Source of the DNA: Enterococcus innesii | GTDB lineage: Bacteria; Bacillota; Bacilli; Lactobacillales; Enterococcaceae | Assembly (NCBI GenBank): GCA_018982785.1 | Contig: JAHHEN010000004.1 | Span: 377,001 to 441,000, forward strand | Direction of reading: 5' to 3' | DNA: 64,000 nt | Part shown: positions 49,942 through 52,934 of the stretch, in pieces | Layout of the letters: each line of letters begins with the position of its first letter | How positions within the stretch are numbered: the stretch's first letter is position 1 | The notes under the pieces: model-generated | Seen by the model: only the letters and a program-made list of their open reading frames with translations | Told to the model about the DNA's origin: nothing | Database searches by the model: none | Position numbers and translations under genes: made by a program

Positions 49942-49989
49942 GTGGGTAGTTGGAAGGAAGACTTCCGACGAACTGACATTTTATACAAA

Positions 49990-50150
49990 TAATTGTTAGG
50001 TGAGGCTCCTATATGGACACAAGCTGCTGCCGCAAAAGTATCGAGAGATACTTAGTTGGTAGGACAGGTCTAATCGTGAAGGTTAAACCCAAAGTAGCTG
50101 ATAGCAGATTTGCTATCTACGCCCTATAGTGCTAAAGCTCTACAATGATC
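49990..50150 (+). ncRNA. M-box (Mg2+) riboswitch
   Basis: The blocks GTTAGGTGAGGCTCCTATAT and GCTGCTGCCGC, and the 3' block TAGTGCTAAAGCTCTAC, are the conserved core of the ykoK/mgtE-type M-box of B. subtilis. A terminator follows. High Mg2+ should compact the aptamer and favour termination, lowering mgtA expression. Confidence 0.95.
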
Positions 50151-50161
50151 ATGAGTTTTTT

Positions 50162-50192
50162 ACGCATGCTTATTGGGAGCGTGCGTTTTTTT
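50162..50192 (+). terminator. M-box expression-platform terminator
   Basis: ACGCATGCT and AGCGTGCGT arms (one G-T pair), a 7-nt loop and a T-run. Confidence 0.88.
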
Positions 50193-50249
50193 GTGTCTTT
50201 TACGCGCGTTCCACAGTGACTTACCTAATAAAAAGAAAGGAAGATTCAC

Positions 50250-50324
50250 ATGGAATACCCCAGTCCCCAGATGAAACAGCGGAGTAGTTATCGAATCGCT
50301 AGGGGTGGCGTAAGCAACTCCTAA
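50250..50324 (+). CDS. Candidate 24-residue leader peptide upstream of mgtA
   Basis: ATG at 50250 has GGAAG six bases before it, a strong site. The frame encodes 24 residues starting MEYPSPQMKQ and ends in TAA at 50322-50324, 18 bases before the mgtA ATG. The TAA lies in the left arm of a hairpin (CTCCTA 50318-50323, TAGGAG 50329-50334) that covers the mgtA GGAGG. CTCCTA can also pair with TAGGGG at 50300-50305 inside the ORF. This suggests that translation of the ORF influences mgtA translation. The peptide resembles nothing I know; it contains a PSP segment, which recalls proline-linked control of Salmonella mgtL, but there is no sequence similarity. Expression is unproven. Confidence 0.5.
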   Translation: MEYPSPQMKQRSSYRIARGGVSNS

Positions 50325-50335
50325 GTGCTAGGAGG
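50318..50335 (+). promoter_or_regulatory. Hairpin sequestering the mgtA ribosome binding site
   Basis: CTCCTA-AGTGC-TAGGAG is a perfect 6-bp stem with a 5-nt loop, and its right arm includes the GGAGG (50331-50335) used by mgtA. Confidence 0.55.
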
Positions 50336-50342
50336 AAAAAAG

Positions 50343-52934
50343 ATGTTAAAAAAACTATCGAAAGATCAAGAATTAAAATTACTGGCAAAATTGACCGAAA
50401 GAGAATTGCTGATGGAAATGCGGACATCTTTCCAAGGGTTATCGGAAGAAGATGCTGCAGAACGTTTGGCAGAGTATGGTCCAAACAAAGTGGATGCGCA
50501 AAAACCAACACCTGCTTGGTTGATGATCCTAGGTGCTTTCAAAGATCCTTTTGTGTTAGTTTTGGCATTATTAATGGTTATTTCTTTTGTAACAGGCGAT
50601 ATTGAAGCAGTGATCGTGATGGGAATCATGATTTTGGCAAGTGTCATGATTACTTTCGTCCAAGAATACCGTTCCCAAAAAGCAAGCTTAGCGTTAAAAG
50701 AACTTATTGAAAATACTTGTTCCGTCACTCGAGATGGAATCACGAGAGAAATTCCAATGGATGAAGTCGTTCCAGGAGACATCGTCACCTTAGCAACCGG
50801 CGATATGATCCCTGCTGATGCCATCTTGATTTGGACCAAAGATTTATTTATCAATCAATCATCATTAACTGGCGAGTCAATGCCAGTTGAAAAATTTGTG
50901 GATGCTGGGATCAAAGAAAGTGATGCCCAAATTTCAGCTTTAGACATGCAAGATCTTGTTTTCATGGGTACCGATGTCTTAAGTGGTCAAGGAAAAGCGA
51001 TTATTTTGAAAACCGGTCAAAGTACTTTCTTCGGTGATATTGCCAAAAATGCGACGACGAAACGCGGCAAAACAACTTTTGAAGATGGCTTAACGAAAGT
51101 CAGCAAACTATTGTTGCGAATGGTCATGGTTCTTTTCCCGATCGTATTACTGATCAACGGATTGACCAAGGGCGATTGGGGCGAAGCGTTGTTCTTCGCG
51201 ATAGCAGTAGCAGTTGGTTTGACGCCAGAAATGCTACCAATGATCGTCACCAGCAACTTAGCCAAAGGGGCGATCTCTTTATCAAAAGAAAAAGTGATCG
51301 TCAAAGAATTGCCTTCTATACAAAACTTAGGCGCAATGGATGTTTTATGTACCGATAAAACGGGTACGATCACCGAAGATCGTGTTGTACTGGTACAGCA
51401 TTTAAACCCATTTGGCGTAGAAGATAAACAAGTCCTTGATATGACGTATTTAAATTCTTACTATCAAACAGGGTGGAAAAACCTGATGGATATTGCTGTC
51501 TTAAACTACTATGAAGAAGAAGGCTTGTCAGCGCCATTTAACGATGTGACAAAAATCGATGAGATTCCGTTTGACTTCTCACGTCGCCGCTTGACGGTTG
51601 TTGTCAATGCAGATGGTCATCAACTGATGGTCACTAAAGGGGCAGCCGAGGAAATGGAACAAGTCTGCAAGTATGTAGAAGTTGATGGCAAAGTGATGGA
51701 ATTGACTCCTCAATTGAGAGAACAATTGCGTCAAGTGAATTTGCGCTTGAACAAACAAGGAATGCGCGTGTTGACTGTTGCTGTAAAACGGGATGCCCAC
51801 GCAGATGCCGTTTATTCTGTAGAAGATGAACAAGACATGATCATGATTGGCTTTATGGGCTTCTTAGATCCAGCAAAAGAAACAGCAAAAACAGCGATTG
51901 CTTCTTTACATGGCCATGGCATCAATGTCAAAGTGCTGACGGGAGATAATGCGATCGTTGCGCAAAAAGTTTGTCGAGATGTTGGGATCGATGCTGATGA
52001 ATACTTGCTAGGAACCGATATAGATCATCTGTCAGATGAAGAGTTAGCAGAGAAAGCTGCAAAAACCAATCTGTTTGCAAAATTAAATCCAATGCAAAAA
52101 TCCCGAATCATTGAAACCATTCAAGCGGCAGGCCATACGGTTGGCTTTATGGGAGATGGCATTAACGATGCGCCTGCTTTGCGCACGGCAGATGTAGGTA
52201 TCTCGGTTGATACCGCAGCAGATATCACCAAAGATGCCAGCTCGATCATTTTATTAGAAAAAAGTTTGAATGTCCTTGATAAAGGAGTCATCGAAGGCCG
52301 CAAAGTATTTACCAATATGATGAAGTACATCAAAATGACTTTGAGTTCGAATTTCGGGAATGTGTTCTCGATTTTAGTTGCTAGTGCCTTTTTACCTTTC
52401 TTACCAATGTTGTCCATTCAACTGTTGGTTCAAAACTTGGTGTATGATATGGCCCAATTGACGATCCCATGGGACAACGTAGATAAAGAAGAGTTAGAAA
52501 AACCAGTTAAATGGCAAGTGGGTGGACTATTGAAGTTTACCGTCGGCATTGGACCTGTTAGCAGCATCTTCGATATTTTGACCTTCTTTATGATGTGGCA
52601 TGTCTTTAGTGCAAATACCATCCAAGAGCAAGCCTTGTTCCAAGCAGGATGGTTTATGATTGGCTTAACGACACAAACCTTAGTCGTTCACATGATCAGA
52701 ACGAGAAAATTACCATTTATCAAAAGTATCGCATCACCTGCAGTTTTGATTTCAAGTGTTCTAGCGATTGCAGTTGGCTTCTTGGTCATCTTGACGCCAT
52801 TGCATACCGTCTTTGATTTTGCAGCACTGCCATCAAGTTACTGGCCATGGTATGTCGGTATCAATCTAGCTTATTTAGTAACAGTTGAGTTTGCGAAACG
52901 CATTTACATTCATGTCACGAGAGAATGGATTTAA
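50343..52934 (+). CDS. mgtA: Magnesium-translocating P-type ATPase
   Basis: An 863-residue type IIIB P-type ATPase importing Mg2+. It has about ten TM segments, the actuator TGES, the phosphorylation motif DKTGTIT, MVTKGA in the nucleotide domain and GDGINDAPAL in the hinge. The end is the expected TM bundle (about residues 680-860). I chose ATG 50343, seven bases after GGAGG; the frame also opens at 50325 inside the leader. It is controlled by the M-box riboswitch. A terminator follows. Confidence 0.96.
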   Translation: MLKKLSKDQELKLLAKLTERELLMEMRTSFQGLSEEDAAERLAEYGPNKVDAQKPTPAWLMILGAFKDPFVLVLALLMVISFVTGDIEAVIVMGIMILASVMITFVQEYRSQKASLALKELIENTCSVTRDGITREIPMDEVVPGDIVTLATGDMIPADAILIWTKDLFINQSSLTGESMPVEKFVDAGIKESDAQISALDMQDLVFMGTDVLSGQGKAIILKTGQSTFFGDIAKNATTKRGKTTFEDGLTKVSKLLLRMVMVLFPIVLLINGLTKGDWGEALFFAIAVAVGLTPEMLPMIVTSNLAKGAISLSKEKVIVKELPSIQNLGAMDVLCTDKTGTITEDRVVLVQHLNPFGVEDKQVLDMTYLNSYYQTGWKNLMDIAVLNYYEEEGLSAPFNDVTKIDEIPFDFSRRRLTVVVNADGHQLMVTKGAAEEMEQVCKYVEVDGKVMELTPQLREQLRQVNLRLNKQGMRVLTVAVKRDAHADAVYSVEDEQDMIMIGFMGFLDPAKETAKTAIASLHGHGINVKVLTGDNAIVAQKVCRDVGIDADEYLLGTDIDHLSDEELAEKAAKTNLFAKLNPMQKSRIIETIQAAGHTVGFMGDGINDAPALRTADVGISVDTAADITKDASSIILLEKSLNVLDKGVIEGRKVFTNMMKYIKMTLSSNFGNVFSILVASAFLPFLPMLSIQLLVQNLVYDMAQLTIPWDNVDKEELEKPVKWQVGGLLKFTVGIGPVSSIFDILTFFMMWHVFSANTIQEQALFQAGWFMIGLTTQTLVVHMIRTRKLPFIKSIASPAVLISSVLAIAVGFLVILTPLHTVFDFAALPSSYWPWYVGINLAYLVTVEFAKRIYIHVTREWI

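Follow-up and report, generated by a model that had tools for sequence, protein, structure and literature searches.

Introduction

The closest described systems are short upstream open reading frames (uORFs) in Mg2+-responsive leaders. During translation of MgtL at low Mg2+, ribosomes drop off at EPDP, the Rho-dependent terminator becomes inaccessible and mgtA is transcribed; this drop-off is counteracted by EttA (PMC11282234). In the 8-codon uORF MgtQ, Asp2 and Glu5 free the ribosome-binding site of mgtB via alternative stem-loops, and loss of the MgtQ start codon lowers mgtB (PMC8092293). In Mycobacterium tuberculosis, an Mbox is followed by the conserved uORF rv1805A, with PE/PPE genes downstream (PMC12810186). 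Among searchable papers, accounts of Mg2+ sensing by ribosome destabilization at a leader peptide come from enterobacteria; an MgtQ-like ORF has also been pointed out in Brucella (PMC8092293). Here we analyzed the leader of mgtA, which encodes a Mg2+-translocating P-type ATPase, in a stretch of 64,000 nucleotides from Enterococcus innesii (assembly GCA_018982785.1, contig JAHHEN010000004.1, positions 377,001 to 441,000 of the forward strand), called the window below and numbered from its own first letter. A small ORF lies between an M-box riboswitch and mgtA in this leader. It is probably an MgtL/MgtQ-like attenuator behind an M-box, with MgtL, MgtQ and the M. tuberculosis M-box uORF as precedents. 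The first-pass annotation of the window had regarded the combination of M-box and leader ORF as unknown in Firmicutes. Our searches of the open-licence literature (including PMC9495176) agreed, in that no description of the combination before mgtA in Bacillota or Enterococcus was found; outside this phylum, however, an M-box followed by a uORF has been published for M. tuberculosis (PMC12810186).

The window resembles the MgtL systems of E. coli and Salmonella in its short uORF before mgtA, its alternative RNA folds and the proposed OFF state upon full translation (PMC11282234). The leader peptides of its relatives also share with MgtL (MEPDPTPLPRRR) an acidic/Pro N-terminus followed by basic residues, as in MEDPHQRR and EPGSSRRR. 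Unlike MgtL, which acts through Rho-dependent termination, the folds predicted here govern the Shine-Dalgarno (SD) sequence of mgtA, and an M-box with an intrinsic terminator lies upstream (PMC11282234). With MgtQ of Salmonella, the window shares a tiny acidic uORF, a choice between stem-loops 1:2 plus 3:4 and stem-loop 2:3, and, by prediction, the freeing of the transporter's ribosome-binding site with a translational output; its four arms, numbered 0 to 3, have the topology described for MgtQ stems 1 to 4 (PMC8092293). On this analogy MgtQ is the closest mechanism, although MgtQ is intergenic within an operon, has 8 codons and belongs to a different phylum, and the available portion of that report mentions no M-box (PMC8092293). 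The M. tuberculosis leader likewise runs from an M-box through a conserved small uORF to a main gene, but there the switch directly controls the uORF via a translational platform and Rho-dependent termination, whereas our proposal has the uORF gating mgtA (PMC12810186). Finally, as for CorL, the leader peptide of E. coli corA, uORF translation would be inverse to expression of the Mg2+ transporter, which is a prediction in our case; CorL differs in being Rho-dependent and having fewer acidic or Pro residues (PMC11552253). Taken by its features, the window has an SD-bearing short uORF in the leader of a Mg2+ transporter gene, early acidic and Pro residues, and predicted exclusive folds that overlap the uORF. 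It probably works like MgtQ and MgtL; we propose a likeness of function and claim neither homology nor descent.

Results

An acidic leader ORF lies between the M-box and mgtA

All features of the locus lie on the plus strand. The M-box aptamer (49985-50156) matched RF00380 at 123.4 bits against a gathering cut-off of 44, over model positions 1-169 of 169; it thus scores above the family cut-off and stands upstream of the Mg2+ gene mgtA. It is followed by an intrinsic terminator found by pattern scan (50162-50193, with a stem-loop at 50162-50186 and a T run). The leader ORF (50250-50324) encodes the 24-aa peptide MEYPSPQMKQRSSYRIARGGVSNS and ends with TAA at 50322-50324. Its SD sequence GGAAG (50239-50243) lies six bases 5' of the ATG, and the start scored 4.8 in our SD scan (the window's leader being locus L134 in our numbering; L, G, C, g and f numbers are our own handles for loci, genomes, contigs, genera and families). 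Codons 2-6 (50253-50267) read Glu-Tyr-Pro-Ser-Pro, which comparison with the N-termini of relatives marks as a candidate ribosome-destabilizing motif. The gene mgtA (50343-52934, 863 aa from the ATG at 50343) was recognized by TIGR01524 (1201.6 bits) and by its orthologues. The M-box, the terminator and the GGAAG-preceded 24-codon ORF had all been read off the window in the first-pass annotation, and our scans confirmed them. From the leader ORF to mgtA, a pattern scan turned up nothing resembling an intrinsic terminator, and the second switch is therefore most likely translational.

By nucleotide search, the spacer itself was matched only in six genomes of the window's genus, its own included, out of 59; the remaining matches, all of them short, resemble chance hits on purine-rich sequence. 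The window derives from an Enterococcus lying very near E. casseliflavus: genome G001 has a spacer 99% identical and an MgtA 98% identical to those of the window, and a leader identical to that of E. casseliflavus NBRC 100478 (L035). A match to GlmZ in the Rfam scan of the window (17.2 bits against 60) was dismissed as chance.

The acidic N-terminus recurs across Lactobacillales

We collected mgtA orthologues from named genomes and from 105 genomes of the family and 246 of the order (76 and 89 matched at E<=1e-250). Beside the loci returned by these searches, 80 upstream stretches were retrieved, and the scan yielded 114 distinct leaders. Sixteen matches with at least 53% identity were left unretrieved (G144, G158, G172, G192, G206, G213, G220, G227, G240, G252, G270, G283, G291, G296, G300 and G311), mostly close kin of retrieved genomes of genus g23 or g44, and paralogues of about 49% identity were retrieved only in part. 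Fifteen of 151 loci gave no tblastn match (short coding ends) and were excluded from the leader statistics; read by eye, 14 of them have an acidic uORF and L254 has none.

A uORF with an SD sequence and a [DE]x0-2P start occurred in 90 of the 114 leaders; ten sets of shuffled spacers gave 9.0 on average and never more than 15. For ATG uORFs beginning M[DE]x?P, the count was 53 against 0.3 (maximum 1). A looser rule on acidic and Pro content was satisfied by 103 leaders against 36.1 (maximum 44); this rule is circular with respect to composition, and the shuffled-spacer control applies the same rule. From the 104 leaders meeting the content rule, we removed six with off-pattern peptides (L233, L236, L238, L239, L241 and L248). 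At residue 2, 47 of the 98 chosen uORFs have Glu and 36 have Asp, 83 in all. In at least two loci, L219 and L220, the rule chose wrongly, taking a GTG ORF over a better-placed ATG ORF encoding ENSDPGSQ. All these counts are of leaders that are related within clades, some nearly identical, and are not counts of independent events.

The N-termini are rich in acidic residues, Pro and Ser (EYPSP, EDPSHS, DHPSPQ, EPGSSRRR, DDSSQS). In the window's genus they begin MEYPSPQ or MDNPSPQ; further typical starts are MEDPSHS, MEDPHQRR, MEHPSPS, MDHPSPQ and MDHEDSRPK, and named species contribute MEDPQSK (Tetragenococcus solitarius), EPGSSRRR (Vagococcus humatus) and NDSPGDDFW (Carnobacterium jeotgali). 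Genomes of family f7 of the order have MAHHQEEEVEEPDSYD, MPQFLEDDPAEPESS and MPSLFAESDPDSS. Counted by hand, 13 of the 14 family genera having an mgtA match bear an acidic leader, the exception being that of G011 (L215). Among the 91 leaders with an M-box recognized by pattern in the stretch that was taken, 88 passed the content rule (L227, L238 and L242 did not) and 80 passed the [DE]x0-2P rule; among the 23 without a recognized M-box, ten bear MEDPS, MDHPS, MDYED, NPDPS or DMDPD peptides. Eight more of these 23, mgtA copies of genus g29, lack such a leader (L224, L228, L231, L233, L234, L236, L237 and L241), although some of these rows pass the loose content rule. By contrast with the N-terminus, the C-terminal part of the uORF differs between clades, and the length ranges from 13 to 54 aa or more. 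We consider it very probable that the ORF is a selected regulatory leader ORF. The acidic/Pro/Ser N-terminus, which had no place in the first-pass annotation, is the informative part.

At the codon level, the ratios of synonymous to nonsynonymous changes in codons 2-8 were 3:17 in the window's clade and 0:54, 5:261, 4:3, 79:49, 9:31 and 7:75 in six others, leaning synonymous in only two clades (79:49 and 4:3). Nucleotides as well as residues seem to be held, which would fit an RNA arm lying over the motif and stops short of proving coding. CCC accounts for 79 of the 140 Pro codons within leader codons 2-14 and for none of the 29 in the window's mgtA. Pairing with arm 1 may explain this preference, as may slow decoding.

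The predicted folds switch with ribosome position

The SD sequence of mgtA lies in arm 3 (TAGGAGG, 50329-50335), identified by sequence, SD scan and folding. Arm 2 (50317-50327, with ACTCCTA at 50317-50323) is an anti-SD segment that includes the stop codon and can pair either with arm 3, hiding the SD, or with arm 1 (CGCTAGGGGT, 50297-50306, with TAGGGGT at 50300-50306) in the 3' portion of the leader ORF, leaving the SD free. Arm 0 (50256-50264) covers codons 3-5 and is predicted to pair with arm 1 when no ribosome is present. The hairpin of arms 1 and 2 (50297-50327) has a predicted energy of -13.6 kcal/mol, equaled in stability by 1 of 200 shuffles, and the SD-hiding hairpin (50318-50334) has -7.6 kcal/mol, equaled by 7 of 200. 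The fold of arms 0 and 1 alone is unexceptional (-14.3 kcal/mol, z -0.54, 63 of 200 shuffles equally good), and the whole 168-nt leader is only slightly stabler than shuffles (z -1.70, 15 of 200 as good); the case therefore rests on comparison and not on single-sequence energy.

Without a ribosome, 50256-50264 is predicted to pair with 50298-50307 and 50318-50323 with 50329-50334, so that the SD is hidden. When a ribosome was placed on the AUG or codon 4, arm 1 was predicted to pair with arm 2, so that the SD was largely exposed; moving the ribosome to codon 13 restored the SD hairpin. In terms of modeled openness, the SD of the window moved from 0.20 without a ribosome to 0.66-0.73 with one at codons 1-9 and 0.16-0.18 at codons 12-18, under a fold model that omits kinetics, tertiary contacts and Mg2+. 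The ORF and the two predicted folds of the window hold up and recur in relatives; the first-pass annotation had described two exclusive folds, one hiding and one freeing the mgtA SD, and comparison supports them.

To compare leaders, a 29-nt ribosome footprint was placed either on early codons (3, 5 and 7) or on later ones (10 onward, clear of the SD hairpin) in 97 leaders, namely the 98 left after dropping the six off-pattern ones, less one lost in this computation. Shuffling was applied to the region from codon 10 to the SD. The difference in SD openness, early minus late, averaged +0.212, compared with -0.047 after shuffling (standard deviation of set means 0.016). It exceeded 0.1 in 56 leaders (11.3 shuffled, maximum 19) and 0.2 in 42 (5.4, maximum 9), and lay below -0.1 in 4 (29.0 shuffled). 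Of the 97 leaders, 56 are predicted to have the polarity in which an early ribosome opens the SD, 4 have the reverse and 37 show no clear direction. An exclusive three-arm switch was predicted for 46 of 98 leaders (the window and 45 others), against 9.0 (maximum 14) after shuffling. The letters of the arms are unrelated between clades (CTAGGGGT/ACTCCTA, TAGGGAAG/CTTTCCTA, TAGGGGGAT/CTTCCTCCTA, CCTGGGAGG/CCTCCTAGG and GGGCGGC/TTGCCTT).

Arm 1 starts 38 to 61 nt downstream of the uORF AUG in 44 of the 46 switch leaders, the two outliers being the mis-picked L219 and L220, while the stop can fall at any position between +39 and +162. Part of the lower limit on the spacing is a product of the search, which barred arm 1 from the early footprint (to about +25). 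In the model, then, the switch is keyed to the start and not to the stop, which is what an early pause or abort would require. The location of TAA inside the left hairpin arm, emphasized in the first-pass annotation, accordingly stands for the window and fails as a conserved feature. The alignment of relatives gave a similarly divided answer, with SD, start, N-terminal residues and arm topology recurring across Enterococcaceae and with stop and C-terminal residues varying. Out-of-frame overlap of the uORF with the mgtA start, seen in 24 of 98 leaders, fits full translation being the OFF state and not reinitiation.

Both-side pair changes in the helix of arms 1 and 2 were found at 3 of 8 pairs in genus g10 (14 rows), 3 of 9 in a set of 4 rows and 2 of 6 in a set of 5 rows; the 15-row MEDPSHS clade gave none. 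For arm 0 there was modest support, SD openness without a ribosome being 0.397 compared with 0.457 when the 5' part was shuffled (standard deviation 0.015); the value fell below the shuffled one in 40 of 98 leaders and exceeded it in 19. On this modeling, arm 0 is a possible fourth arm, beyond the three of the first-pass annotation, that would shut off the SD when no ribosome is present.

The leader ORFs of genus g10 (L167-L170, L192-L195 and L197-L208), which may be the E. avium group, are among those overlapping the mgtA start out of frame; where their end was seen, the stop falls 41-77 nt past that start.

A proposed ribosome-based gate behind the M-box

We propose that mgtA is under a two-gate Mg2+ control in which the M-box and the leader peptide act in series. 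At the first gate, low Mg2+ would lead the M-box to permit transcription. At the second, the residues Glu2-Tyr-Pro-Ser-Pro6 would cause the ribosome to pause or fall off under scarce Mg2+, as for MgtL and MgtQ. Anywhere from the AUG to about codon 9, a paused ribosome would cover arm 0, so that arm 1 pairs with arm 2 and the mgtA SD is exposed (ON). One passing through would cover arm 1, freeing arm 2 to close the SD hairpin (OFF), and with no ribosome the pairs of arms 0:1 and 2:3 would keep mgtA OFF. We give a probability of about 0.68 to a ribosome-based Mg2+ gate of this kind, acting on mgtA translation through an early pause or abort behind the M-box. The recurrent peptide motif, the exclusive folds and the single polarity were computed; from them we infer translation of the ORF, Mg2+ as the signal and early pausing or drop-off as the cause. 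The second, translational layer of control below the M-box that had been suggested in the first-pass annotation thus draws support from comparison across leaders; covariation in the window's own clade of six was uninformative.

Several results weigh against the proposal. Drop-off alone would restore the OFF fold of the ribosome-free leader, so the model needs dwell time or repeated initiation. No difference above 0.1 was obtained for 41 of the 97 leaders, including L054, L075, L152 and L177, which go the wrong way, and two of the six leaders of the window's clade (L031 and L034, at 0.02 and 0.05) are predicted not to open. Blocking the first 28 columns still leaves the SD hairpin in the consensus fold of that clade, and the single both-side change in this fold is not in the helix of arms 1 and 2. 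A modeled ribosome at codons 19-22 reopens the SD of the window (0.49-0.89). Five of the seven clades show no synonymous excess in codons 2-8 and hence no clear coding constraint. Some peptides, moreover, carry a single acidic residue near the start (MDTGSS, MDPSS), below the classical acidic runs.

Part of this evidence would be expected if ribosomes finishing the uORF melted the SD hairpin and passed on to mgtA, so that leader translation promotes mgtA by coupling or reinitiation. The reopening by a ribosome at the last codons of the window speaks for this, as does the stop within arm 2, 18 nt 5' of the mgtA ATG. Yet the uORF passes the mgtA start out of frame in about a quarter of the leaders, the stop wanders whereas the spacing between start and arm 1 stays close to a single value, and the acidic N-terminus would go unexplained, so we regard coupling as unlikely. 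The missing synonymous excess, in turn, reads as if nucleotides were held for pairing, and arm 0 overlaps the motif, both of which would suit a switch made of RNA alone, whose arms sense Mg2+ or another factor directly and in which C-rich and A-rich pairing segments yield the ORF as a by-product. Such a by-product would hardly recur as an acidic motif with unrelated letters and at varied offsets (EPGSS at about residues 8-14; EEEVEEPD in family f7) or be preceded by an SD; ORFs of this kind are rare in shuffled spacers, and two clades do lean synonymous. This makes an RNA-only switch very unlikely.

The same attenuator could also serve a stalling sensor for another signal, such as limitation of prolyl-tRNA or EF-P, or amino-acid starvation. 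The prevalence of CCC among leader Pro codons, set against its absence from the window's mgtA, would agree with this; proline codons reportedly play a role in Salmonella MgtL, as Gall et al. are said to have found in 2016 (cited in PMC11552253), and a role of EF-P in Salmonella mgtA translation has reportedly been published as well (PMC6460261). However, many leaders have no Pro-Pro or early Pro (MDDSSQ, MDTGSS), the commonest feature is the acidic residue 2, and pairing of arm 0 with GGGG also accounts for CCC. A signal other than Mg2+ is, in our judgment, quite unlikely. Highly improbable is a functional micropeptide, for example a modulator of the pump, with hairpins that are ordinary: the conserved N-terminus would fit, but the C-terminal part and the length vary between clades, the window peptide has no hydrophobic stretch, and the tie to the SD folds (polarity and three-arm switch) would be left over. 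An amino-acid attenuator of the trp type was rejected, as no run of codons for a single amino acid is present; the window has two separated Pro codons and many relatives have none early. A ribosome-based Mg2+ gate remains our preferred reading. If it is true, the M-box accounts for only part of mgtA control and ribosome-based ion sensing is widespread; one transcript would carry two independent Mg2+ sensors, separable by simple mutations, and the natural variants of the motif would offer a ready library for finding which nascent sequences destabilize ribosomes.

Specificity and breadth of the acidic leaders

The identical scan recovered MgtL upstream of E. coli mgtA as a positive control. A second mgtA paralogue, about 44-50% identical, is likewise found behind M-boxes. 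Among M-box loci preceding a recognized mgtA paralogue, 14 of 15 had an acidic uORF (MDDSSQ, MDESPV, MEDSEPQ, MGDDPQ and others), compared with 3 of 34 other M-box loci; two of the 51 loci in this test, L127 and L255, were set aside because the pattern recognized no M-box in them. Two of the three positives among the others, L256 and L259, have an mgtA retrieved too short for recognition, as has L258, with a MEDSEQKK ORF below the SD threshold. After removal of these three loci, the figure is 1 of 31, a TTG/GTG candidate in L113. Seven of the 31 (L104, L107-L110, L122 and L124) have an mgtA relative about 1 kb downstream, behind another gene.

Acidic uORFs also precede mgtA in some Clostridia and other Bacillota. 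In 56 loci, mostly from other Bacillota, an ATG uORF with a strong SD and the acidic motif occurred in 27, against 0.4 (maximum 2) in 30 shuffled sets, a contrast that overstates significance, as the motif was set post hoc. The set includes the reused Enterococcus locus L075, two loci of the window's order (L262 and L272) and several genomes of one genus. Examples are MDTGSSTSATTKRRRR, MDPSSRPTRADRRR, MVDDGSSS, MLEDGSSRS and MEPESSN. The spread is uneven. By the motif rule, 21 of 31 named-genome loci are positive but only 6 of 25 phylum-sample loci, the latter rising to about 11 when judged by eye; at E<=1e-150, only 24 of 299 phylum genomes yielded an mgtA at all. An M-box was present in 13 of 19 and 8 of 20 Rfam-scanned loci of the breadth sets. 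Some acidic leaders have no M-box match (L273, L278, L279, L280 and L281) and some M-box loci have no acidic uORF in the scan (L264, L269 and L284); therefore, the peptide and the M-box are not strictly tied.

Throughout Lactobacillales and in some of the other Bacillota, then, this pump is preceded by a similar kind of peptide, most often downstream of a classical M-box. Tentatively, and at somewhat less than even odds, these leaders may form a [DE]-x-[P/G]-S-S family across Bacillota in which the ribosome is the Mg2+ sensor for a P-type pump, with or without an M-box, and in which, where the M-box is present, aptamer and ribosome stability make up a serial AND gate. If this wider reading is true, enterobacterial MgtL would either belong as one branch to a much wider strategy or resemble it by convergence.

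Other M-box loci

The only other M-box match in the window's own genome (L260; G000:C8:575529-575704, minus strand) precedes a gene of the FtsW/RodA family (PF01098, E 9.7e-74), the 5' end of which, by eye, is out of frame from the apparent ATG; this may point to Mg2+-controlled cell-wall growth or to a broken or different start. In genus g8 (L089 and L091-L100), an M-box without an acidic uORF precedes a gene like L089:1869-3167, which encodes a PAP2 plus LytR_CpsA_Psr protein (Pfam was run on L089 alone). M-boxes followed by genes with MgtC-like starts, as judged by eye, were seen in L113, L125, L126 and L130, with no convincing acidic uORF. Genome G241 has tandem M-boxes about 160 nt apart (G241:C16:177527-177699 and 177862-178040). 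Finally, between the M-box and the second mgtA paralogue, L119 contains a 33-aa ORF resembling a single membrane helix (L119:1127-1225, minus strand); L121 has a similar ORF, and in L129 (1924-3168) it is fused in frame to the pump. We take it that this ORF could be an MgtS-like partner.

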